Positions 14,606 to 59,334 of a DNA stretch of 64,000 nucleotides are shown piece after piece. The stretch is from the NCBI RefSeq assembly GCF_900156105.1, contig NZ_FTMS01000005.1, positions 1 through 64,000 on the forward strand, written 5' to 3'. The first letter of the stretch is position 1. Every line of letters begins with the position of its first letter. Position numbers and translations under genes: made by a program. Below the pieces are notes generated by a model. That model was not told the DNA's origin and ran no database searches. It saw nothing but the letters and a program-made list of their open reading frames with translations. This stretch comes from Alkalispirochaeta americana (lineage in GTDB: Bacteria > Spirochaetota > Spirochaetia > DSM-27196 > Alkalispirochaetaceae).

Positions 14606-14611
14606 TACAGT
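14606..14611 (+). promoter_or_regulatory. -10-like hexamer directly upstream of alaX start
   Basis: TACAGT ends six bases before the ATG at 14618, and no Shine-Dalgarno sequence intervenes. This is consistent with a leaderless transcript. No good -35 is visible. Confidence 0.35.
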
Positions 14612-21719: not shown

Positions 21720-21725
21720 ACTATA
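21720..21725 (-). promoter_or_regulatory. -10 hexamer six bases before the DUF3095 start
   Basis: TATAGT on the minus strand (21725-21720) ends six bases before the ATG (21713-21711). GTGGCA lies 18 bases further upstream (4/6 match to a -35). No Shine-Dalgarno is present, consistent with a leaderless mRNA. Confidence 0.4.
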
Positions 21726-26103: not shown

Positions 26104-26118
26104 ACTGTAGCATAGACT
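26104..26118. promoter_or_regulatory. back-to-back -10 hexamers for two divergent genes
   Basis: TACAGT on the minus strand (26109-26104) and TAGACT on the plus strand (26113-26118) are three bases apart. They precede the starts at 26094 and 26126 by nine and seven bases. TAGGCA lies 17 bases upstream of the minus-strand hexamer. The two promoters would occlude each other. Confidence 0.35.
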
Positions 26119-46613: not shown

Positions 46614-46643
46614 TTGACACAGCCTCGCATTCGTCCGTAGAGT
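46614..46643 (+). promoter_or_regulatory. promoter of the PBP1A gene, predicted leaderless
   Basis: A perfect TTGACA (46614-46619) is 18 bases before TAGAGT (46638-46643), and the ATG follows only six bases later at 46650. Transcription would start at or next to the A of the start codon, and no Shine-Dalgarno sequence exists. Confidence 0.55.
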
Positions 46644-46649
46644 CTCTCT

Positions 46650-49256
46650 ATGGATCGAAGACTTAGAATTGCCCTGGGGATTCTCATTGGCGTGCTGGGG
46701 ACAGCTGTTCTCACGCTGGGCATCATCACCGGATTGGCAATTGCATCAATAGAAAACATCAGAGACCTGGAAAGCCTTCACGACCAGGAATCAGCTCTCC
46801 CGTCGCAGATACTCGACCGCCACGGGCGGCTTATTACAGAGTTTTTCTCCGATGAAAACCGGGAGCTCATAACAATTGACGAACTGCCCCGCCACCTGAT
46901 CTATGCCCTGATCACCCGGGAAGACCAGACGTTTTTTGATCACCGGGGATTCAGTTTCCGTGGAACAGCGCGGGCCGCCTGGAATTTGGTAACAAACCGC
47001 TACGTTTCCGGGGGTTCTACCCTGACCCAACAGCTCGCAGGACATCTTTATGCTGACCGGAACGACTTTTCCCTGTACCGGAAAGTTATTGAACTCTGGT
47101 GGGCCTTGCAACTCGAACGGCACTGGACGAAATACGAAATTCTGGAAGCCTATCTGAACCGGATGTGGTTCGGCCACGGCAACTACGGTGTTGAGGCAGC
47201 GAGCCAGTTTTTCTTTGGCCACTCGGCTCAGGAGCTGACCGTTGCAGAATCGGTCATGCTGGTAATCCAGCTGGCAAATCCCTCTCTGTATTCCCCCATC
47301 CGCCGTCCAAATCAGGCACGCAATATGCAGCGAGTCATCCTGAACAGAATGGTTGATCTGGGCTACGCTACCCAGGATGAGGTGGACCTGAGCATGGAGC
47401 AGTATTGGTCCACCTACGACTTCACCAGAGCCAATACCTCCACAGCTTTCTTCGAACGAGAGGACCGGGCCCCTTTCTTCTCCGAATATGTTCGTTACGA
47501 ACTGGAAAACCGCTATCTGCTGGGAACGCTCAACGTCAATACCGACGGGTACGTGGTCCATACAACGCTGGACCTGGATTTCCAGGAGGCCGCCGACCGC
47601 CACGTCAGGACAGGGCTGGCCCGGGCAAACAGCGTGTACCGCCAGAATATCGCCTCCCGCGTCTCCCGGGGAGACGATCTTGTTCCGGTTATCGAGTTGC
47701 TTGCTCTTGGTTTTGACACCCCCAATCTGCAGGTGGGCCACTCCAAACAGCGGCACCGGGCCCGTCAGGAGTACCAGGAAAATATAAACCCCCTGGTCGA
47801 TGCGATTACTCTTCTCTTTGGGACCGGCCATGACCCGCTTCGCCACGCTACGCGGGAATCCTACGCCCAGAGACGAAGCACTTCCTTGCGTTCCACCGTA
47901 GAAGGTGCGCTTGTCACGCTGGAGAACGATACCGGCCACATTATGGCCATGGTGGGGGGCCGCGAGTTCGAGTCACGCAATCAGTTCAACCGCGCCCTCA
48001 GCGGCGCCATGGAACCGGGCTCAGCTTTTAAACCGCTCTACTACGCAGCCGCCATCGATCAGAGGGTGCTCACGCCGGCCACCATGATCTACGACGCCCC
48101 CATGGTCTTTACTGCCGATAACGGGGAACCCTACGCACCGCGCAACTTCCGGAACGAGTGGGTTGGCCCCGTGCTCGCCCGCTACGCCCTGGCACGATCC
48201 ATGAACGTCCCCTCGGTAAAAATTCTCGATATGGTGGGGTTCTCCACCGGCCTGGATGTCTCGGCCCGACTTCTGGGCATTCCCGAGGAGGAGCGGTCTG
48301 CCCGGGGCTTTGAGCGGCGCTATCCTGTTGCCTTGGGAACGGTCCAGGTCTCGCCCATCGAAATGGCAGCAGCCTACAGCGCCCTGGCCAACCAGGGCAG
48401 ACGCCGCACCCCCCTGGGAATCCGCTACATCGAAGACAGAACGGGCAGGGTCATTATGGAGCCCGAGGCGGAGGTCCGGCGGGAAGACCGCCGAAGCGGT
48501 GCGCATCAGCCCGTTATCAGCCCCCAGGCAGCGTACGTTATCACGGATATGCTCCAAACGACCGTTACTAGCGGGACCCTCCGCTACGCCCGAAACGTAG
48601 CTGGCGGCTTTGACCAGCCCACAGCGGGCAAGACGGGCACGACCCAAAACTGGCGGGCCGCCTGGACCGTAGGCTACACCCCCTATTATTCCACCGCCGT
48701 CTGGTTTGGCTTCGACCGTGGCGGGACAAACAGCTTGGGCGTGAACCAGACCGGAGCGATCACCACCGGCCCGGTCTGGGGACAATACATGAAAGACATC
48801 CACCGAAACCTTCCTCCCCGGGAGTTTGTCCGCCCCGATGGCATCGTCGAGGCCACCGTTACGGCACGGCAAGGGCTTCTCCCTCCGGCAGACTACTCGG
48901 GACGAACAATTCGGGAAGTCTTCATAGCAGGAACGCAACCAACCCAGTTCGACCGGAGCGATCAGTTTGCACAGCAGCAGGCCCCTGAACTGGTGAGCCG
49001 CCTGCGAACCTCTCTGGACAGAGCGAGCTTCTCTCTGGACAGCTCCGGCCCTGCCCTGCACCGCCAGCTCGATCTCAGCCTGGACATCTCCCCCGAAGGG
49101 CGCCGGGAGCGCACAGCCGACCGGGAGCCCCCGGAAGACCCGACCGATGACCGATGGGATGGCGAAGGCCTTCCCCTGGAATTACTCCAGGATCAACTTG
49201 ATCTTACCCCCGCACCATGGGATGATGGAGGCGGTGTGAATCCCCTGCTGGATTAA
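46650..49256 (+). CDS. class A penicillin-binding protein 1A
   Basis: 868-residue bifunctional peptidoglycan synthase. One N-terminal membrane helix, then glycosyltransferase 51 (catalytic Glu91 in REDQTFFDHRGF, and GGSTLTQQLAG) and a transpeptidase domain with Ser458 in SAFK, S517-M-N and K661-T-G. A Gly/Pro-rich, Asp-rich C-terminal tail of about 90 residues has no known fold. It polymerises and cross-links peptidoglycan outside the inner membrane. It is a single gene between the Mla terminator and a ParB-like gene. Confidence 0.95.
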   Translation: MDRRLRIALGILIGVLGTAVLTLGIITGLAIASIENIRDLESLHDQESALPSQILDRHGRLITEFFSDENRELITIDELPRHLIYALITREDQTFFDHRGFSFRGTARAAWNLVTNRYVSGGSTLTQQLAGHLYADRNDFSLYRKVIELWWALQLERHWTKYEILEAYLNRMWFGHGNYGVEAASQFFFGHSAQELTVAESVMLVIQLANPSLYSPIRRPNQARNMQRVILNRMVDLGYATQDEVDLSMEQYWSTYDFTRANTSTAFFEREDRAPFFSEYVRYELENRYLLGTLNVNTDGYVVHTTLDLDFQEAADRHVRTGLARANSVYRQNIASRVSRGDDLVPVIELLALGFDTPNLQVGHSKQRHRARQEYQENINPLVDAITLLFGTGHDPLRHATRESYAQRRSTSLRSTVEGALVTLENDTGHIMAMVGGREFESRNQFNRALSGAMEPGSAFKPLYYAAAIDQRVLTPATMIYDAPMVFTADNGEPYAPRNFRNEWVGPVLARYALARSMNVPSVKILDMVGFSTGLDVSARLLGIPEEERSARGFERRYPVALGTVQVSPIEMAAAYSALANQGRRRTPLGIRYIEDRTGRVIMEPEAEVRREDRRSGAHQPVISPQAAYVITDMLQTTVTSGTLRYARNVAGGFDQPTAGKTGTTQNWRAAWTVGYTPYYSTAVWFGFDRGGTNSLGVNQTGAITTGPVWGQYMKDIHRNLPPREFVRPDGIVEATVTARQGLLPPADYSGRTIREVFIAGTQPTQFDRSDQFAQQQAPELVSRLRTSLDRASFSLDSSGPALHRQLDLSLDISPEGRRERTADREPPEDPTDDRWDGEGLPLELLQDQLDLTPAPWDDGGGVNPLLD

Positions 49257-49279
49257 CCCGAATTGAGGAAGCAAGGCAC

Positions 49280-49783
49280 ATGAAAAACAGGGAAGTGAAA
49301 GAAATATCAATCTCGTCGATACGAACGAAGAACCGGACGCGCCAGGATCTTGGAAACCTTGACTCTCTTGTAGCGAGCATCCGAAAAAACGGCCTCCTCC
49401 ATCCTATAGTAGTTACGGAAGATTTCCTGCTCGTCGCAGGGCACCGGCGCCTGGAAGCGGCCCGCATCCTGGGGTGGCAGACGATAGACTGTAGCATCAT
49501 CTCTGATACGTCCCAGGAAGAACTCCTGCAGATAGAGCTCGACGAGAACGCCGTCCGGAAAGAGTTTACCAGTGACGAGATGGCCGATGCGCTTTTGAGA
49601 CTTGACCGAATCCGCAATCCTTCGGGCCTGAAACGTCTCTGGCGAGGTCTGTGCGACCTCGCCAGCAAAATCTGGCAAACCATGACCAGCCCCTACAGAA
49701 GATTGACAAACCGCAAAGACAAGCAGACAGAGGAACGAGAGATCCCGCCTCCTGCAACCGGAGAAGACCCCTCGCTGGAGTAG
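49280..49783 (+). CDS. ParB-like N-terminal domain protein
   Basis: 167 residues. A ParB/Spo0J N-terminal-type domain has LVASIRKNGLLHPIVV and the box GHRRLEAARILGW (G-x-RR), which binds and hydrolyses CTP in true ParB proteins. The DNA-binding helix-turn-helix and dimerisation domains of ParB are absent; instead a short helical, basic C-terminus follows. It is not next to parA. A role in chromosome segregation is therefore doubtful. AAGCAAGGCAC precedes the ATG, 23 bases after the PBP1A stop. Confidence 0.75.
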   Translation: MKNREVKEISISSIRTKNRTRQDLGNLDSLVASIRKNGLLHPIVVTEDFLLVAGHRRLEAARILGWQTIDCSIISDTSQEELLQIELDENAVRKEFTSDEMADALLRLDRIRNPSGLKRLWRGLCDLASKIWQTMTSPYRRLTNRKDKQTEEREIPPPATGEDPSLE

Positions 49784-49857
49784 ATGCCTGACGACTTCCC
49801 ATACCAGCCCCTCTGGGCAGGTCAATTCCGGGGGCTTTTCGCCTTCACCCACCACAA

Positions 49858-49895
49858 AACCCGGGGAGCAACCGGGAGCACCGCTCCCCCGGGTT
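49858..49895. terminator. strong hairpin between converging parB-like and P83/100 genes
   Basis: AACCCGGGGAGC (49858-49869) pairs with GCTCCCCCGGGTT (49883-49895) with one bulged C. On the minus strand the stem is followed by TTTTG, so it should end the P83/100 transcript; on the plus strand only a weak T-rich stretch follows. Confidence 0.7.
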
Positions 49896-49910
49896 GAACA
49901 CAGCCGTTCT

Positions 49911-51542
49911 TTATTGCAGGTTCAGTACGCGCAAGTCCCCCCGACTTCCCTGAACCAGCACGTGATCTCCCCGCACAACAATATCAGTGTCGGGACTTAC
50001 CGCATCGGCAGAACGCCTCACAAGAACCAGATCCGAATCGAACTCGCCCACAAAAGCAGCTCCATTCTCCTCGATCAATGTAAGAATAGAATTTCCCTGA
50101 AAGACAACCCTGCTGCCGGGCCGCACAGATCGCTCGCTTTCTGCCCGAACCGAAAGAGATGAAGGCTCCAGAAGAAGCATTCTTCGGGTACCGCGGTGAA
50201 CCGCCAAAAGCCCTCCCCGATACTCCAGAACAGTCCGGCCCGCCAGAGGGATAATCTGCCGCTCGGCCAAAACCGGGCCATCCAGATTCACCACGGCGAT
50301 CTCATAGCCCCCCTGACCATCGGCCAGGACAAAGGGAACCAGATCGGGCGGCGCAGCCCGATCATGCAGAGTGGCTTGATCCTCAGCTGTGTCCTGATAC
50401 AACTCTTCAAGCTGATCCATCAGAACCCCCAGTTCAGCCTCTTCAGCAAGCAACTCCTCCTCGCGTTGGTCCAGGGCCTCTTCGCGTTCCCGGAGAGCCT
50501 CTTCATCCTCCAGAGATTCATCCTCCGGAGGGGGGGCAGGAGCATCTTCCTGGACAGGCCGATCCGGTTCAGGATCCTGATCAACTTCATGCTCCGGATC
50601 TTCCCGGGGAGTTTCGGGAGGCAGAAGGTCATCCTCATCGGCATGGGGGGTGGCCTCGGGCAAAGGATCCTGAGGATCGGCGTCCAGCGCGGGAGCCGGA
50701 TCCTGCTGGAGGTCCTCTCTCCTGCGCGCAATCTCCTCCCGTTCCTCTTCGATCTCAGCCCGCTCAAGAGCTATCTCATCGAGACGAACCTCTACAACCC
50801 GCTCGATAAACTCGATAATTGCCTTGCGGTCATCGATCCCCAGATCGGCGCGGCTCCTCAAGTCGCCGATAACTGCTGGCCCCACAAGCTGGCCCGGGTC
50901 AACCGCGTCAAGATCACCGGGATCGCGCCCTCCCCTGAGGGGAACCACCATCTGGGTCTGTCCGGGCCAGTCCCGATAGGAAAGAGCGATACCAACGCGC
51001 TGGGGGTCCAGCGCGTTCGACACAGCCTCGCGATAACGGGCCACAAAAAAATCCATATCTCCACGATGGACAGCGTTGTAGATTGTGATAAACCGCGCCA
51101 GGAGATCCGCATCACCGCGCTGGTATCCCCAGGCGGTAATCAGGAACTCCGAAAGAATCCTGCGGACATTTTCGATGTGATCAACCCGGGCAGCAGGAGA
51201 AAATTCAATGATGTCGGCAGCCCGGCGACGGTCAAGAGGGTCGCCAATGATGCGGCGGATGATATATCGATTGAAATAGTCGTAGGTCTCGTCTTCGGCA
51301 GCTCCCTGGCCCAAAGCAGAACCGATCCCGCGTATTGCCTGGGCGGTATCGAACTGCTGGACTTCTCCCAGGAAGCTTTCAAACTCGATATCTGCCCCGG
51401 CTGCTGCTTCAAGCTCCGAGCGATCGATCTCCAGAGCGGAGACCGCCGGGAGAGAGCCCGGGACAAGAGAAACGGGAAGAGCTGCAACACCCCCCATCAA
51501 CAAAAAGAACGAAAGAACGAACGGGCGCCATCGAATTATCAT
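49911..51542 (-). CDS. P83/100 family protein
   Basis: 543 residues from ATG 51542. It matches the spirochaete P83/100 antigen in pattern: YDYFNRYIIRRIIGDPLDRRRAADIIE, VDHIENVRRILSEFLITAWGY, DADLLARFITIYNAVHRGDMDFF and WPGQTQMVVPL. A signal peptide opens the protein (MIIRWRPFVLSFFLLMGG). The middle (about 270-420) is an extreme Glu/Asp/Pro-rich coiled coil, and the C-terminus is beta-rich. The open frame starts at 51569, but TATACT ten bases before 51542 and the signal-peptide pattern favour the later ATG. Confidence 0.88.
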   Translation of the reverse strand: MIIRWRPFVLSFFLLMGGVAALPVSLVPGSLPAVSALEIDRSELEAAAGADIEFESFLGEVQQFDTAQAIRGIGSALGQGAAEDETYDYFNRYIIRRIIGDPLDRRRAADIIEFSPAARVDHIENVRRILSEFLITAWGYQRGDADLLARFITIYNAVHRGDMDFFVARYREAVSNALDPQRVGIALSYRDWPGQTQMVVPLRGGRDPGDLDAVDPGQLVGPAVIGDLRSRADLGIDDRKAIIEFIERVVEVRLDEIALERAEIEEEREEIARRREDLQQDPAPALDADPQDPLPEATPHADEDDLLPPETPREDPEHEVDQDPEPDRPVQEDAPAPPPEDESLEDEEALREREEALDQREEELLAEEAELGVLMDQLEELYQDTAEDQATLHDRAAPPDLVPFVLADGQGGYEIAVVNLDGPVLAERQIIPLAGRTVLEYRGGLLAVHRGTRRMLLLEPSSLSVRAESERSVRPGSRVVFQGNSILTLIEENGAAFVGEFDSDLVLVRRSADAVSPDTDIVVRGDHVLVQGSRGDLRVLNLQ

Positions 51543-51666
51543 AACACCAGTCAGTATAACCCATCCCATACCATTTCGAAATAACCATTGCGAAATTGCG
51601 AATCAAGATCATCTTCCCGGCAGCAGAATTTTCCTTGCCGGGGTTCTTTTCTCCCGCAAGAAGACG

Positions 51667-51672
51667 TATACT
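51667..51672 (+). promoter_or_regulatory. -10 hexamer six bases before a membrane-protein gene
   Basis: TATACT ends exactly six bases (GCCGCC) before the ATG at 51679, with no Shine-Dalgarno sequence. The -35 region is weak. It fits the leaderless pattern seen elsewhere in the window. Confidence 0.4.
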
Positions 51673-51678
51673 GCCGCC

Positions 51679-52452
51679 ATGTTCGGTTTCCTCATAAAGA
51701 AAGCTTTTTTTGATCTCTGGGACAACTTCCTCCCGGTAATGCTCCTGAACCTCGGATTTATCGCCGTGATAGCGCTCCCCATCCTTCTTCCGGCAGCGGT
51801 AGCCCCCTTCGGCCCAGTAGCTGGCATCACCGCCCTGATTATTGGTGTTCTTGTGGTCTTCTGCTACATCGGAGGACTGGCTGGCGTCGCACGGACAATC
51901 GTTGACTACGAAAGCCTGGAGTGGAATTCTTTCTTCTCCCCGTTGCGGCAGTTCCTCCCGGTGACCCTCTCCCTGGGCGCAGCTGTACTCCTCCACTGCG
52001 CACTTCTGCTTGTGGCCATCCCGGTCTACACGGCCTTGGGAAACCTCTTCAGCATTTTTGCCCTGGCCATCCTCTTCTGGATGTCTCTCATCTGGTGGCT
52101 CGCGATTCAGTACGTCTTGCCCGTGCGGGCCAGACTCTCCCGGCAGCCTCTGGCTGTCCTGAAAAAATCATTTATTCTGACCCTGGACAATACTTTTTTT
52201 ACCATCGCCATCGCTCTGGGTGCCGTGGTAATTGCAGTCCTTTCAACCTTTACAGCTTTTCTGCTCCCCGGAGCAGCAGGTATTGCAATCTGGTACCAGG
52301 CAGCACTCAAACTCCGCCTCTACAAGTACGATCACCTGGAAGAGACCGTCGATAAAAAAGCCTCTATCCCCTGGGACGCCCTTCTCTACAAGGACCGGGA
52401 ACGGGTCGGAAAACGAACGCTCCGGGGAATGATCTTTCCCTGGAAAGAATGA
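51679..52452 (+). CDS. six-helix membrane protein of unknown function
   Basis: 257 residues with about six transmembrane helices (LPVMLLNLGFIAVIALPILLPAAVAPF; ITALIIGVLVVFCYIGGLAGVA; FLPVTLSLGAAVLLHCALLLVAIPV; FALAILFWMSLIWWLAIQYVL; FTIAIALGAVVIAVLSTFTAF). The loop LRQFLPV and the C-terminal LRLYKYDHLEETVDKK are hydrophilic. I recognise no family. It is divergent from P83/100 and convergent with the queuosine-precursor transporter. Confidence 0.75.
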   Translation: MFGFLIKKAFFDLWDNFLPVMLLNLGFIAVIALPILLPAAVAPFGPVAGITALIIGVLVVFCYIGGLAGVARTIVDYESLEWNSFFSPLRQFLPVTLSLGAAVLLHCALLLVAIPVYTALGNLFSIFALAILFWMSLIWWLAIQYVLPVRARLSRQPLAVLKKSFILTLDNTFFTIAIALGAVVIAVLSTFTAFLLPGAAGIAIWYQAALKLRLYKYDHLEETVDKKASIPWDALLYKDRERVGKRTLRGMIFPWKE

Positions 52453-52515
52453 TTTCAATCTCCAAAAAAAGAACTCGATGAGCGCGCCGAAAAACCGGCC
52501 GCCCACCGAGAGCTG

Positions 52516-53211
52516 TTACTCGCCTCCCGGGGTGTCCGCCTTTTCCGGCGGCCTCAATCTCAGAGCCAGATACAGGAAGGGCGTGTCCAGAAGCGCCACA
52601 ATGAGCTTGAAGAGATAGGTTGTTATCACAATCTCTACCATAACACCGGCAGGAAAAACTCCCAGAAATGCAATGAGAGTAAAAACGAGACTGTCTATGA
52701 GCTGACTCACACCGGTGCTCAGATTATTTCTGAGCCAAAGCGGACCGGGAAATCGCTTCTTCCAGAACTGAAACGCCCAGATATCGTGGGACTGACTCAC
52801 CAGATAGGCAGCAAGACTGGCAAGCACAATTCGGGGAAGGAGACCAAAGATCGCCACCAGGTGGATCTGCATCTCGTCCGAGGGGGCTGGAGCAAAGAGG
52901 AGCGCCAGCTGCATGAGGACCGTAAAGGCCAGAATGGAAAAAAATCCCACCCAGACGCCTCTGGTAGCACTTTTCTTTCCAAATCGTTCCGACAGGATAT
53001 CCGTAGCGAGAAATGACCCTGCATAGACGATATTTCCCAGGGTCGCTGTCATCCCAAAGAGAATAACCGTCTTGCTGACCTGGAGGTTCGCCGTTATTCC
53101 AGCGATGGCAATCCAGATAAAGAGCCCCTGTTTTCCCCAAAAATACCAAGCCAGGGTGATGAGGCCAAAATTCAACATGAGCATACAGAGCCAAAGTAGT
53201 TCATTCATCAT
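52516..53211 (-). CDS. VUT-family queuosine precursor transporter
   Basis: 231 residues from ATG 53211, which overlaps the previous gene's stop (ATGA). The VUT/YhhQ pattern is clear: SKTVILFGMTATLGNIVYAGSFLATDILSERFGKK and NLSTGVSQLIDSLVFTLIAFLG, with about six helices. The family imports queuosine precursors such as 7-cyano-7-deazaguanine. With queG in the same window, this supports salvage of queuosine. The open frame to 53217 begins at a TTG and is less likely. Confidence 0.88.
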   Translation of the reverse strand: MMNELLWLCMLMLNFGLITLAWYFWGKQGLFIWIAIAGITANLQVSKTVILFGMTATLGNIVYAGSFLATDILSERFGKKSATRGVWVGFFSILAFTVLMQLALLFAPAPSDEMQIHLVAIFGLLPRIVLASLAAYLVSQSHDIWAFQFWKKRFPGPLWLRNNLSTGVSQLIDSLVFTLIAFLGVFPAGVMVEIVITTYLFKLIVALLDTPFLYLALRLRPPEKADTPGGE

Positions 53212-54413
53212 GGGCAAGAGATTCCTTTCGTATCGAACTTTTCTCGGGGTTCCTTTTTCCCTGTACCAGCGGATTCTGCTCCGGGGGGCGCATCAGGGAA
53301 CGTAAGGGGTCTCCTATTATCAGTAAGGCGCTGGGCAAGAAAGATTTTGTCCAGACCAAGATCATTCACAAGACCCCGTAGCGCCTGTTCGCTGATCAAG
53401 TTGCGTTCTGCAAAAAGGTATACCAGCGCACGTTCGGCCAGACAGGGCACGAGCAGGGCATTCCTGCACAACTGGTCCCGCTCGGTCTCTTCCCGGTGAT
53501 GCTGGTAAATCCATTGACCCAGCGCGGAACTGTTTGGATCCTGGTGGAGGAGCATCAGCTCCTCCCGAAGCGGTCCGGGAGCACCTGCAGCAGCCCGCTC
53601 ACCCAGAGGCTTCAGGATAAGGTAGGTGTATTCCTTGCCGGGGAGGACATGGTGCGCACCGCAACGGGTCTCATAGTTCGGCTCGAGCCCATCGTCATGC
53701 GTTTGGTCTCCACCCACAATGATCAGCGGATCAAAATAAAGAGCCGGGCACTCCACCCCTCTTCGCAGATAATAGCGATAGGTATAACTGGAATCTTCCA
53801 GGCACGATGGATGCTCACAATAGGCCGTGAGAGGGAAGACATCCTGAGCGGCATCCAGCAGAAGCCCCGCCGTATCGTTAAAGAGGGCGTTGCGAAAGTT
53901 AAGAATCAGGGTGGGCAAGATAAAGACCAGCCCGCGCTCCACCGTAAGCCGTCGAATAGCGTAGGCAATACGTTCATCATAGAACGATGCTTCATCAAGT
54001 ATCCAGGTTCCCGTCTCGGGATGATCATCTACAATTTGCTCCAGTTCGTAGGAGGTAGCAATGTCGGCGATGGCTGCTCCCAGCTTTTCGCATCCTCCCC
54101 GGTAGCTCAGAACATCCTCAGGAGCTTCAGCAAAACGGCGCTTGTCCAGACGAGATCGAAGAAAGAAGACGTTGCGAAGATCCGCCTCTGATCCCTGAAG
54201 CTGTGTGAGGGTCCGGACAGAATCGCTTTTCTTCAAGACCACCCGGGAATCGCGCCAGACCTGGGCAGCGAAGCCGGTCTTGCCTGACCCCATGGGGCCC
54301 ACCACCAGAATCACGCGCCCTGGCCGACGAAAATCGAAGTGATTGATCGGATGGTGCACGTGAAGCTTTGGCAATCCCAAGGTCTCGAAGAAAGAACGGT
54401 AGTTTGAATCCAT
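53208..54413 (-). CDS. divergent thymidine kinase-like (TK1-fold) protein
   Basis: 401 residues, about twice a normal TK1. The P-loop GPMGSGKT (39-46) and DEASF (about 140-144) correspond to the TK1 P-loop and the DEAQF catalytic Glu region. Beyond them, FILPTLILNFRNALFNDTAGLLLDAAQDVF, a CEHPSC ... CGAHH cysteine/histidine set and EPNYETRCGAHH mimic the TK1 lasso and zinc region. Insertions around these parts and about 140 extra C-terminal residues are unusual. Kinase activity is inferred. It is the fifth gene of the cluster. Confidence 0.65.
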   Translation of the reverse strand: MDSNYRSFFETLGLPKLHVHHPINHFDFRRPGRVILVVGPMGSGKTGFAAQVWRDSRVVLKKSDSVRTLTQLQGSEADLRNVFFLRSRLDKRRFAEAPEDVLSYRGGCEKLGAAIADIATSYELEQIVDDHPETGTWILDEASFYDERIAYAIRRLTVERGLVFILPTLILNFRNALFNDTAGLLLDAAQDVFPLTAYCEHPSCLEDSSYTYRYYLRRGVECPALYFDPLIIVGGDQTHDDGLEPNYETRCGAHHVLPGKEYTYLILKPLGERAAAGAPGPLREELMLLHQDPNSSALGQWIYQHHREETERDQLCRNALLVPCLAERALVYLFAERNLISEQALRGLVNDLGLDKIFLAQRLTDNRRPLTFPDAPPGAESAGTGKKEPREKFDTKGISCP

Positions 54414-54424
54414 TACTTTTGTGC

Positions 54425-55147
54425 CTAATTGTGCCGGGGATCGAGAACAGGGTTTTTCAGGAGGCCGATCCCTTCGATCTCCACCTCGATCACATCATTG
54501 TGTATAAGAGGGCCTACCCCCGCAGGAGTGCCCGTGAGGATGATATCACCCTCACGAAGCGTGAAATTTCGTGAGACGAAGGAGATTATTTCAGCAATGG
54601 GTGTAATCATCTGGGCTGTGGACCCTCTTTGCACCACACGGCCGTTGCACCGCGTCACTATCTCAAGGTCCTGGGGGTTCGGGATATCGCGGGAAGAAAC
54701 AATCCGGGGCCCCAGGGGCAGAAAGGTGTCGAAAGACTTGCCCCGGAACCACCCTGAACGATCTCCATTTTGAAGATTGCGCTGGGACACGTCATTCGCG
54801 CAGGTGAATCCGAAGATATACTCCCCGGCCCTGGCCGGAGAAATATCAAAACCGTCCCGACCAATTATGATCGCCAGCTCTCCCTCGTAATCGGTCCGTT
54901 CCTCCTCGAAGGAATAGTCATCCAGAATCAAGGGCAGACGGATTGCCTCGTGAGGACCAATAATGGATGAGGGCAACTTGGGAAAGAGAACCGGCTCGGG
55001 GGGCTCATCGGTTCCAAAGCCGCGAACCTTGACCGAGAGGCTTTCCTGAATATGCTCACGGTAGTTCAGACCCAAGGCGATGACCTTCTCGGGTTGAACG
55101 GCATATGTTCCCCCTCCTGCGCAGGGAAGATTCAGAACCTTCTTCAT
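54425..55147 (-). CDS. fumarylacetoacetate hydrolase family protein
   Basis: 240 residues of the FAH fold. The substrate/metal region GLNYREHIQES, DYEGELAIIIGRDGFDI and GFTCANDVSQRNLQ are typical, with acidic ligands in the EGEL segment. Family members act on acylpyruvates, oxaloacetate or catechol-derived diketones; the substrate here cannot be told. Start ATG overlaps the previous stop (ATGA), so it is coupled to the SanA-like gene. Confidence 0.9.
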   Translation of the reverse strand: MKKVLNLPCAGGGTYAVQPEKVIALGLNYREHIQESLSVKVRGFGTDEPPEPVLFPKLPSSIIGPHEAIRLPLILDDYSFEEERTDYEGELAIIIGRDGFDISPARAGEYIFGFTCANDVSQRNLQNGDRSGWFRGKSFDTFLPLGPRIVSSRDIPNPQDLEIVTRCNGRVVQRGSTAQMITPIAEIISFVSRNFTLREGDIILTGTPAGVGPLIHNDVIEVEIEGIGLLKNPVLDPRHN

Positions 55148-55836
55148 GAGGCGGATTCTACGTCAAAAAACGGGGAAAACTCAATGGGAAAACTGCCCTT
55201 CGGCTTTCCGGGCTCGGTCCTGAAGAGATACACATCAAGCACTGCCTGAACCCTGGCAAGATATTCTCTCAAACGCACGTAGACGTGAAGAACCCCGGTG
55301 GCATCCTCGGCAGCAAGACCGATCGCATCGACTCCACGATGAGCCGCGATGAAGAGCGCTCGCTCAACGTGAAAGGGCTGGGAGACAATCACAAACCGCT
55401 CCTGCCCGAAGACCTGTTGCATTCGCCACACCGAATCAAGGGTGCGAAGCCCTGCATAATCCAGGACAATCACCGATGAGGCCACACCAGCCTCGCGCAA
55501 CGCGTTATACATGCTCAGTGGTTCGTTATAGCCAACGCTCGAATTGTCTCCGCTGGCGACGATAGCAAGAACTTTTCCCGTCTCGTAGGCCTTGGCAACA
55601 GCCTGAATCCGGTGGTGAAAAAACTGGTTTGGCGCCCCTGATCGGGTGTATCGGCTTGTCCCCAGAAGCAGAATAACCGAGTCGGCCGGGAGATCCCGGG
55701 GGTCAGTGAGAATCTTCCCCTCTGCAGCGTGCTTCACCACGGCGTGAGAAAAAAAGACCACCAGGAGCACAAAGAGCACTCCCAGCCGCACCACCCTCCA
55801 GACGGTGGAGAGGAGAGATATCAGACGGTGCGACAT
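55144..55836 (-). CDS. sanA: SanA/YdcF-like DUF218 membrane protein
   Basis: 230 residues. One N-terminal helix (LGVLFVLLVVFFSHAVV) and a DUF218 domain with the family runs DSVILLLGTSRYTRSGAPNQFFHHRIQAVAKAYETGK, IVASGDNSSVGYNEPLSMYNALREAGV, LDYAGLRTLDSV and VSQPFHVERALFIAAHRGV. SanA-type proteins affect outer-envelope barrier function in other bacteria; whether that holds in a spirochaete is unknown. It lies seven bases after the HEAT protein gene. Confidence 0.83.
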   Translation of the reverse strand: MSHRLISLLSTVWRVVRLGVLFVLLVVFFSHAVVKHAAEGKILTDPRDLPADSVILLLGTSRYTRSGAPNQFFHHRIQAVAKAYETGKVLAIVASGDNSSVGYNEPLSMYNALREAGVASSVIVLDYAGLRTLDSVWRMQQVFGQERFVIVSQPFHVERALFIAAHRGVDAIGLAAEDATGVLHVYVRLREYLARVQAVLDVYLFRTEPGKPKGSFPIEFSPFFDVESAS

Positions 55837-55843
55837 GGCTTGA

Positions 55844-56545
55844 TCAGCGACCGTGATCCCTCATGTTCACGATAGCATCGACAGCCCGCATTCGCACTGT
55901 CCGTATGTACGGGCTTGAAGCTGTCTCGATCAGCGCGTTAAGGACTTCGGGATCGGCCAACCCGCCGTTTGCGTCGGAGAGACGCTCCAGAGAAATAATG
56001 ATCGAGTAGGCCAGGTTGTTGTCAGGCGTGGCCCGGGCATTTTCCCGCAACAGGGTGTGGACCAGATAATCCGATACCTCTCTGTTGTCGTTTAGCCCGA
56101 TTGAACCCAAGGCGTAGGCAGCTTCAGCAAGGACCACCACCTCGGGATCATCACGAAGGACACGGAGAAGGGTGTTTTTTGCCCGCTCTCCCCCGACCTG
56201 GCCCAGAAGCTCCGTGGCCTCACGACGGATCAAGGGGAAATTGTTCACGATTGATCCCTGGGAGCGCACCTGTCGGGAAACACCCTCGGAGGCAAGCGCC
56301 TCCAGCACCACATACACTCCGTCAGAGGCGGCCCCCTGCTCGACCATGGCCCGTATGCTCCGAAGCGCCAGACGCTTCATTTCGGGATCCGTTCCAAGAG
56401 CCTGGCTCCGAAGAATCTGAAGCTCGATATCCTGACTCAGGAAGAGATCCTCAATTGTTCTACTCGGAGCACCTTCCTGTTCCTCCGCAATAATCCAAAG
56501 AGGCGCCATCAGCAACAGACCAAGCAACAGATATTTCATTTTCAT
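55844..56545 (-). CDS. HEAT-repeat protein with signal peptide
   Basis: 233 residues from ATG 56545, which has GAGGG six bases upstream. Signal peptide MKMKYLLLGLLLMAPLWIIA. The mature part is a chain of helical repeats (LRSQALGTDPEMKRLALRSIRAMVEQG; LGQVGGERAKNTLLRVLRDDPEVVVLAEAAYALGSIG; later ones to the end) of the HEAT/PBS-lyase type, which bind proteins. A TATAGT hexamer (56573-56578) 27 bases upstream would allow its own transcription. Confidence 0.8.
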   Translation of the reverse strand: MKMKYLLLGLLLMAPLWIIAEEQEGAPSRTIEDLFLSQDIELQILRSQALGTDPEMKRLALRSIRAMVEQGAASDGVYVVLEALASEGVSRQVRSQGSIVNNFPLIRREATELLGQVGGERAKNTLLRVLRDDPEVVVLAEAAYALGSIGLNDNREVSDYLVHTLLRENARATPDNNLAYSIIISLERLSDANGGLADPEVLNALIETASSPYIRTVRMRAVDAIVNMRDHGR

Positions 56546-56580
56546 TGTGTCCCTCACATCTCCCTGAAGCGAACTATACC

Positions 56581-57291
56581 CTAAAAGGTATCGATCTTCC
56601 ACACATTATTTACATTTCTCAACAGGTACAGCACGTAAGGCCGTTCGTTGATAACCATTATCGCTTCCACCACGTCTTCACTCAGAAAGACCAGATCATC
56701 CAGCCGGGCATTGGCCCTGCTGGGAACCACAACGTAGGAAAAGTAATCTTCCAGGGATCTCAAGACGATGTTGTTCCGAACCAGGACGGAACTTTGCGAG
56801 CTCTGGTGAAGCGTTTCAGGATCCGAGTAGACCCGGCTATACCGCTCGGTGAGCCTATTCTTCCAGGCCGGGAAATCGCGTCGCCGGATGATCTCGTTCA
56901 ACTCGAGGATCGTTTCCTCCACTTCCAGAAAGGTCCTGTCGTAGACAGCTTCCGATATTTGGGGAGGCTCGGGCTCCGGTTCTGGTTCAGGCTCCGGTTC
57001 AGGCTCGGGCTCGGGTTCTGGTTCAGGCTCGGGTTCTGGTTCAGGCTCGGGTTCTGGTTCAGGCTCGGGTTCTGGTTCAGGCTCGGGTTCTGGTTCAGGC
57101 TCGGGTTCTGGTTCTGGTTCAGGCTCGGGTTCTGGTTCAGGCTCGATCTCAGGCCGGAGATCCTCTTGAGGATCGGGGAAACCCGGCTCCTCCTCAAGAT
57201 CGACCGAGGCGCATCCCCCCAGGACCCCCAGGGCAAAAAGGGAAGCCGCCGCGAGGAAAAGAAGAAAAAATCGCCCCTTGCAGTCTTTCAT
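56581..57291 (-). CDS. lipoprotein with a long Glu-Pro repeat
   Basis: 236 residues. The signal sequence ends in lipobox G-G-C (Cys about 27). About 20 acidic residues are followed by about 30 consecutive Glu-Pro pairs, an extended rod, then a 115-residue C-terminal domain ([32 protein letters not shown] ... [20 protein letters not shown]) that may be an NTF2-like fold. It is the first gene of a six-gene minus-strand cluster. The EP rod probably spans the periplasm or cell wall. The start has no Shine-Dalgarno sequence. Confidence 0.8.
56966..57144. repeat. Glu-Pro codon repeat with 18-bp unit
   Basis: About 180 bases made of 6- and 18-bp repeats; TCTGGTTCAGGCTCGGGT (plus strand) recurs several times in tandem between about 57015 and 57135. 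All unit lengths are multiples of six, so copy changes keep the reading frame. Confidence 0.9.
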
Positions 57292-57297
57292 GAGGTT

Positions 57298-57327
57298 AGT
57301 GTAGCCGGGTCACGAGAGAAGTGTCAA
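57298..57327 (-). promoter_or_regulatory. promoter of the Glu-Pro lipoprotein gene, predicted leaderless
   Basis: On the minus strand a perfect TTGACA (57327-57322) is 18 bases before TACACT (57303-57298), which ends six bases before the ATG (57291-57289). The spacing equals that of the PBP1A promoter. No ribosome site is present. Confidence 0.55.
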
Positions 57328-57355
57328 TTTTATTGTGTCTCTGCAGGGTTTATTG

Positions 57356-57384
57356 TTGCCCTGAGTCCGCTCTCTCCGTACAAT
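57356..57384 (+). promoter_or_regulatory. promoter of the 640-residue unknown gene
   Basis: TTGCCC (57356-57361) and TACAAT (57379-57384) are 17 bases apart. AAGGAAG follows and precedes the ATG at 57412 at normal distance, so this transcript has a leader, unlike its divergent neighbour. Confidence 0.55.
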
Positions 57385-57411
57385 GCACTCTGGAGAAAAA
57401 AGGAAGCAATC

Positions 57412-59334
57412 ATGGCCACTGTCCGGGACGTCCAGAAAATCATACACCGCTATGCTCGACACATACGGGGTCCGCGCTTTTCCCTGCTGGCGCTGATGGA
57501 GTACATCCCTTCCTTCGTGCGCCGTTACCAGGATGACCATCCGGAGCTTGAGCTCCTGCTGGGTCCGGACTCGCAGGATCTGCTCTTGGGTCATCTGGAC
57601 CAGTTGGAGCAGGCAGGGATAATCGAGTTGACTCGAGAAACTCCTTCGACCCCTCCCTCCTCCATATACTACAATACCTTTTACACGGCCGAGATCCAGC
57701 GATGGTACACTCGCATGAATGACGACAAGAGTTTGTCTTTCCCGACCGAGGAGGACATTCCCGTCCCCATTCCTTCTCACATTATTCAAACCGTGGCGGT
57801 GGCGGAAAATCTGATGCACTGGATTGAGGCGGAGGAAGAAGAACCAGGGCAGATTCTGCGCCTCCGCTTTCCCGACGGGGTCAATCCCTTGATTACCACG
57901 GTCCGCTCCCTCCGGGAGCAGATGCTTCCCCTGGTCCTGGCAAAGATCAGAGACTACCTGCGCAGCGACAACACAGCCAGCTTTATGGAGACCAAGCTGC
58001 GGGCAATCTTCCGGAACCGGGAGATGCTCGTCCGCGATGAGATAGAGACGGCCCAGATTCGCCCGAACGAGGCCCTGCAGTCGATCTTGAAACCAAATGA
58101 TTTTCAGTTTCACTTCTGGACCCAAATGTCCAGCATGATTATCAAGGAATACGCTCAAAAAGGGGAAAAGCTGGACCGGGAGCACTCCTTTTGTCAGGCA
58201 GCCTACTTGCTGGGCTACTACGTGGTTCACCACAAGACCTCTGTGCAGAAGGATCAACAACGGGAAGAGGCCCGCAAAATTCTCCGGGGCCATCTGCAAA
58301 AACCGCCCTACGTCTTCGAGCTTCATGATCTCTACATGCTCACCGACGATCGCGGTGTCCTTTTGACCAAAAAGATTGCCCGATCCGACATCGAAACCTG
58401 GATACAGGAGATGCTGAAACGTCCTTCCGAGCAGGAAATATCCGAACTTGTCTCGTTTGACACTCCCGAGAAAAAGGGCCTCATCATCCACTCAGGCCAA
58501 TATGTACCGCTCTTGCTCCGCCTCATCCAATCAGCAGCACCAGTGCTACGCCGCTCCCTGACGCACAGAATGCTGACCGAGTTGCAGGATGACCAACGGG
58601 AAGACTGGCATAAAGACGACGCCGCTTTCGAGTTTGAACTCCTGGAGCAGGTTCGCCGGGAGTTCCCCCTGCTCTACGGCCTGGCCTCGTTTAAGACGCT
58701 TTTTCTGGTCCTGGATGGCCAGGATCTTCCCCAGCACGAAAAAACCCCCGCCATGGCCATGATAGATCGCTCAAAGCACTCTCTCCGCAGCTGGTCCTCA
58801 ATCCTGAAGATTACTCGGGAGGAGGTCTTTCGGGACGCCCGGATACAACTCCCCTTCTGGATGGTGATCCCTGTCCTGGGCAGTCTGATCCGACTCTTCC
58901 GGGCAATGTTCTCCTCCTCCGGAGCCGATAAAAAGACGCAAAACAAGGCAAAACCAAAGGAAAAGAACCCACCCCGACCAACCAGCAGCCGTGGCAGGAA
59001 GCAGCATTTCCAGGCGCAGATCGAAGATTTACAATCCCGCTACCTCTCCCCCGGACAAAGCCCCCAGGATCGACTCGACCAGCTGAGACAATCCTGGAAT
59101 CCCCTGATCGATCCCACAGCCCACGAGAATCTTGTCCAGGATGTGAACACCCTTTGCCGTGACATTCTGCGCCGTCGACGGTACGACCGCTCACTTCAGC
59201 CGCCCTCACCCGAACACATCAGGGATCTTGCCCGGAAGATCGCGGCCTCCAGCTCCTTCGAGCGCATCAAGCGCCAAAAAGATCTTCAGACCTATCTCGA
59301 ACTCTACATGCTCACCTTACTCAAGAAGGTGTAA
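57412..59334 (+). CDS. large protein of unknown function, probably spirochaete-specific
   Basis: 640 residues from ATG 57412, chosen for its AAGGAAG ribosome site; the open frame extends far upstream through the EP gene's antisense and is an artefact of it. The protein is mostly alpha-helical and charged, opening MATVRDVQKIIHRYARHIRG. One hydrophobic segment lies near residue 481-501 (LPFWMVIPVLGSLIRLFRAMF), followed by a Lys/Pro-rich linker (KTQNKAKPKEKNPPRP) and a helical tail. I recognise no domain. It ends one base before the converging phosphatase gene. Confidence 0.75.
   Translation: MATVRDVQKIIHRYARHIRGPRFSLLALMEYIPSFVRRYQDDHPELELLLGPDSQDLLLGHLDQLEQAGIIELTRETPSTPPSSIYYNTFYTAEIQRWYTRMNDDKSLSFPTEEDIPVPIPSHIIQTVAVAENLMHWIEAEEEEPGQILRLRFPDGVNPLITTVRSLREQMLPLVLAKIRDYLRSDNTASFMETKLRAIFRNREMLVRDEIETAQIRPNEALQSILKPNDFQFHFWTQMSSMIIKEYAQKGEKLDREHSFCQAAYLLGYYVVHHKTSVQKDQQREEARKILRGHLQKPPYVFELHDLYMLTDDRGVLLTKKIARSDIETWIQEMLKRPSEQEISELVSFDTPEKKGLIIHSGQYVPLLLRLIQSAAPVLRRSLTHRMLTELQDDQREDWHKDDAAFEFELLEQVRREFPLLYGLASFKTLFLVLDGQDLPQHEKTPAMAMIDRSKHSLRSWSSILKITREEVFRDARIQLPFWMVIPVLGSLIRLFRAMFSSSGADKKTQNKAKPKEKNPPRPTSSRGRKQHFQAQIEDLQSRYLSPGQSPQDRLDQLRQSWNPLIDPTAHENLVQDVNTLCRDILRRRRYDRSLQPPSPEHIRDLARKIAASSSFERIKRQKDLQTYLELYMLTLLKKV

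Follow-up and report, generated by a model that had tools for sequence, protein, structure and literature searches.

Start-codon-adjacent promoters and predicted leaderless genes in a relative of the spirochaete Alkalispirochaeta alkalica

The 64,000-base window, which covers bases 1-64000 of contig 5 in a source genome of 3.31 Mb and 65 contigs, contains two genes on opposite strands that share one promoter layout, TTGACA, 18 bases, TANNNT, 6 bases, ATG. The plus-strand gene encodes the penicillin-binding protein PBP1A and the minus-strand gene a Glu-Pro-repeat lipoprotein. Both layouts had been described in the original prediction and were found again at the same positions:

46614-46619, plus strand: -35 element TTGACA of the PBP1A gene, kept in 7/7 orthologues
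46638-46643, plus strand: -10 element TAGAGT of the PBP1A gene, 18 nt from the -35 element and 6 nt before ATG 46650
46650-49256, plus strand: PBP1A (transglycosylase-transpeptidase), predicted leaderless; Pfam Transgly 3.3e-55, Transpeptidase 1.1e-29
57327-57322, minus strand: -35 element TTGACA of the lipoprotein gene, kept in A. alkalica and a third species
57303-57298, minus strand: -10 element TACACT of the lipoprotein gene, 18-nt spacer, 6 nt before ATG 57291; hexamer and spacing identical in two relatives
56581-57291, minus strand: Glu-Pro-repeat lipoprotein, predicted leaderless; signal sequence begins at ATG 57291

In PBP1A, the source genome shares 93% protein identity with Alkalispirochaeta alkalica DSM 8900, a free-living spirochaete to which, by this comparison, it is closely related. 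TTGACA is present together with TAGAGT or TACAGT in all seven PBP1A orthologues, the -10 element lying 6-7 nt before the ATG, and in the same seven sequences the DNA further upstream of the promoter has diverged. Several orthologues also share part of the promoter spacer (window 46620-46643), namely CGTCCGTA ahead of GAGT or CAGT; this part may represent an extended -10 or the site of a regulator. The full TTGACA-18-TACACT-6-ATG layout of the lipoprotein gene is retained in A. alkalica and one third species. The lipoprotein carries a long Glu-Pro run; 20 of the 21 related genomes contain a match to it, a few of them to the repeat only, and its C-terminal ~130 residues are conserved in most of the 21. 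A plus-strand open reading frame (window 56545-59334) overlaps the lipoprotein gene only if an early start is assumed; its start is likely ATG 57412, preceded by AAGGAAG, which would place it divergently from the lipoprotein gene. An Rfam search of the window returned no RNA family, with no known riboswitch or leader RNA before these genes.

The pattern of TTGACA, a spacer of 16-19, TANNNT, a gap of 5-8 and RTG occurs exactly twice in the window, compared with 0.05 occurrences expected from dinucleotide shuffles, of which 1 in 100 also held two matches. In the whole genome it occurs at 23 places, and the reversed pattern at 4. Six further starts in the window had been listed as following a -10-like hexamer, and at each of them the hexamer and its distance agree with that description:

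14606-14611, plus strand: TACAGT, 6 nt before start 14618 (alanyl-tRNA-synthetase-related protein); TACAGT-6-ATG kept in A. alkalica, flanks diverged
51667-51672, plus strand: TATACT, 6 nt before start 51679; kept in A. alkalica
21720-21725, minus strand: TATAGT, 6 nt before start 21713 (DUF3095 protein)
26113-26118, plus strand: TAGACT, 7 nt before start 26126; A. alkalica has the same hexamer and spacing, with 50% protein identity
26104-26109, minus strand: TACAGT, 9 nt before start 26094 (predicted ~3-nt leader); kept in A. alkalica
51553-51558, minus strand: TATACT, 10 nt before start 51542 (Borrelia P83/100-like protein); kept in A. alkalica

The A. alkalica scaffold searched held no orthologue of the DUF3095 gene (start 21713, minus strand). 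None of these starts has a Shine-Dalgarno (SD) sequence under our rule, which counts GGAG, GAGG, AGGA or longer matches 3-12 nt before the start. The 16S tail, from which the species' own anti-SD would be read, was sought in the 1.26-Mb genome sample described below and not found. Two of the six sites belong to divergent genes whose starts, 26094 and 26126, are 31 bases apart, with TACAGT (minus) and TAGACT (plus) back to back in a gap that is nearly identical in A. alkalica. Since both -10 elements lie inside these 31 bases, each -35 must fall in the first codons of the other gene. A second divergent pair (L062:6143-7373; G000 C8 86143-87373) has starts 58 bases apart and a TANNNT exactly 6 bases before both, although one of the two, at 64 aa, may be a spurious gene call.

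The position of TANNNT relative to start codons was then counted in 1.26 Mb of the source genome, in which an in-frame hexamer model called 970 genes. Upstream signals had no influence on the starts, for which nothing but coding potential and a start-codon prior was weighed; this is a simple caller and not a curated annotation. As a rough proxy for operon position, a gene was termed first if its upstream neighbor was encoded on the opposite strand or lay at a distance of 60 bases or more. The original prediction had proposed such a histogram, with an expected peak at 6-7 bases, and the peak is there at 6: among 360 first genes without an SD, TANNNT stands at 6 bases in 44, against 4.2 in dinucleotide shuffles (largest of 200, 10). 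Over 6-10 bases the count is 107 against 21 in shuffles (largest 33), with 15, 18, 21 and 9 genes at spacings of 7, 8, 9 and 10, respectively, and approximately 4-5 at other positions. Only one of the 429 genes with an SD has TANNNT at 6 bases, and control hexamers of the same letters in permuted order gave no comparable peak.

Genes with spacing 6 rarely carry an SD (2%, compared with 44% of all genes) and are mostly first genes (88%, compared with 61%), as judged by neighbor distance and strand only. Their products are ordinary, among them a tRNA synthetase, redox enzymes, asparagine synthetase, AraC- and LuxR-type regulators, and a PTS protein. The excess over shuffles amounts to ~86 first genes without an SD, or to 91 over all genes (138 vs. 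47), and from this excess we estimate that ~9% of the sample (roughly 85-90 of 970, or about 1 gene in 11) would have leaders of 0-4 nt. When gene calls were set aside and TTGACA-16/19-TANNNT was followed to an ATG within 25 bases, 19 of the 51 distinct places listed had the ATG at 6-8 bases.

Further features of these sites are those of promoters. A TTG lies 16-19 bases before the -10 element at 44% of spacing-6 sites, compared with 19% of control sites, and the position of TTG[AC] tracks that of the -10, at -35 for spacing 6, -36/-37 for 7, -37 for 8, and -38/-39 for 9, while remaining flat in SD genes. A pyrimidine before the first transcribed base is the usual pattern at transcription starts, and 78 of the 97 genes with spacing 6-8 have a pyrimidine at base -1, compared with 57% of SD genes (p = 2e-5) and 53% of other genes without an SD (p = 6e-7). 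At spacing 9, a purine occupies the seventh base after the -10 in 19 of 24 genes (p = 0.03 vs. other genes without an SD), which fits a real 3-nt leader better than a start miscalled one codon late. Together, the pyrimidine at -1, the A at +1 and the purine at the seventh base point to transcripts that would begin on the start codon at spacings 6-8 and ~3 nt before it at spacing 9.

Comparison with A. alkalica showed that the -10 positions of nine spacing-6 genes are conserved, as are all nine start codons, and that in SD genes the conservation peak lies at the SD instead of the -10. The motif was retained at 25 of 28 sites with spacings 6-10, compared with 17 of 29 at 12-45 bases (p = 0.015), and other hexamers at the same 6-10 place were retained in 13 of 26 cases (p = 0.002 against the 25 of 28). 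This footprint rests on 28 sites from part of the A. alkalica genome, and the T, A and T of the motif show no clear advantage in retention over the middle bases (0.95 vs. 0.92). In these small numbers, what the retention test indicates is conservation of the stretch rather than of its three letters. The A. alkalica genome itself has 13 sites at 6-7 bases and 0 at 16-17.

Leaderless expression from start-codon-adjacent housekeeping promoters is, in our judgment, the best explanation of this pattern, with a probability of about 0.88. Under it, the promoters would be of the ordinary housekeeping (sigma-70/RpoD) type, with a -10 element ending 6-8 bases before the start codon, and transcription by RNA polymerase would begin with the start codon's own A (or G). 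A -10 at 9-10 bases would yield a transcript with about 3 nt ahead of the start codon. The resulting mRNA, which has no SD site, would most likely be translated from its 5′-terminal AUG. In other bacteria, the 5′-terminal AUG of a leaderless mRNA is translated by the 70S ribosome.

A gene whose -10 element adjoins the ATG may also have a second, longer transcript that begins at a promoter further up, and several starts are common among bacterial genes. It is nevertheless quite improbable that the genes are read mainly from upstream promoters and that the near -10 is a secondary start or a T/A-rich motif that arose by chance. Only TANNNT in register with a -35 is enriched, with no such signal for permuted hexamers or at other positions, the PBP1A elements are conserved while the sequence further upstream diverges, and the genes have no SD that a leadered transcript could use.

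A similarly improbable alternative is that the start codons are misplaced, so that the true starts lie downstream behind normal leaders and the -10 belongs to an ordinary promoter. Start calls from coding potential are imprecise and some are wrong; for example, the caller placed the start of the plus-strand gene beside the lipoprotein at 57166, where 57412 is the probable one. Wrong calls would, however, blur the peak and not sharpen it to a single base. Where starts were tested by profile matches, position 1 of the SerRS N-terminal domain falls at residue 1, Ham1 begins at residue 3, and position 2 of the semialdehyde dehydrogenase profile falls at residue 6, and therefore these starts cannot be much further downstream. 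The lipoprotein signal sequence beginning at its ATG and the start codon kept in 9/9 spacing-6 pairs argue in the same direction. Of the outcomes that the original prediction had named as counting against it, neither a lack of genome-wide positional enrichment nor, at the starts that could be checked, a start codon lying further downstream was seen. That the two window sites are a meaningless coincidence, as the one shuffle in 100 with two matches might suggest, can be dismissed in view of the 23 vs. 4 occurrences genome-wide, the 7/7 orthologues, and the histogram.

Beyond the source genome, leaderless expression from such promoters may extend to much of the phylum. Across 198 spirochaete genomes, the strict pattern is followed by an ATG at 6-7 bases 2598 times and at 16-17 bases 1206 times (2.2x), and the 6-7 count is the higher in 157 genomes and the lower in 30, in a tally that uses one strict -35, ignores gene calls, and includes genomes that are not independent within a family. 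By family, the ratio is 4.5 in f14, 3.0 in f10, 2.3 in f24, and 0.6 in f12, the last comprising 7 genomes of 1.0-1.8 Mb with 11 sites at 6-7 bases and 18 at the control distance. One genome of the same class (G157), in small contigs, is by far the richest of the 198, with 104 strict sites at 6-7 bases and 20 at 16-17. A tentative reading is that start-codon promoters are an old trait over most of the phylum, strongest in certain lineages and giving no sign in others, so that the mode would have been gained or lost within it. With lineages of strong and weak enrichment next to each other, the phylum could serve the study of how initiation modes evolve.

The original prediction held that leaderless genes are known mainly from Actinobacteria and Deinococcus-Thermus, which is incomplete, as spirochaetes have been on record since a 2011 prediction and the 2017 mapping in Leptospira. 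For this reason, the present case is a well-supported new instance of a known mode, not new in kind, and the novelty implied earlier is weaker. Our literature search found no paper linking Alkalispirochaeta and “leaderless”. The result matters for spirochaete annotation, since gene finders that rely on the SD readily misplace the starts of leaderless genes.

In their survey, Zheng et al. (2011; PMC3160421) predicted leaderless (TA-led) genes for 6 of the 18 genomes of Spirochaetes, with shares of 1.8-6.9%. Those genes, like the ones described here, have TANNNT ~10-12 bp upstream of the start and no SD, but they were found with the authors' own signal classifier and annotated starts, and the text consulted names no spirochaete species. 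Within the same phylum, 5′-end sequencing of Leptospira interrogans (PMC5243855) assigned leaders of <10 nt to ~440 genes and placed the 5′ end of 170-184 genes exactly at the start codon; leaders there were mapped, whereas here they are predicted from sequence. No common promoter motif except that of sigma-54 could be defined in L. interrogans, while the -35 and -10 elements and their fixed spacing are plain here, so that this lineage gains a defined promoter geometry, with the -35 placed 35-37 bases and the -10 placed 7-12 bases ahead of the start. In Deinococcus-Thermus (PMC12340547) and in Mycobacterium tuberculosis (PMC3898074), leaderless promoters likewise have a -10 adjoining the open reading frame and no SD, but they serve a larger share of genes, about one third in D. 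radiodurans (PMC12340547) compared with the ~9% estimated here.
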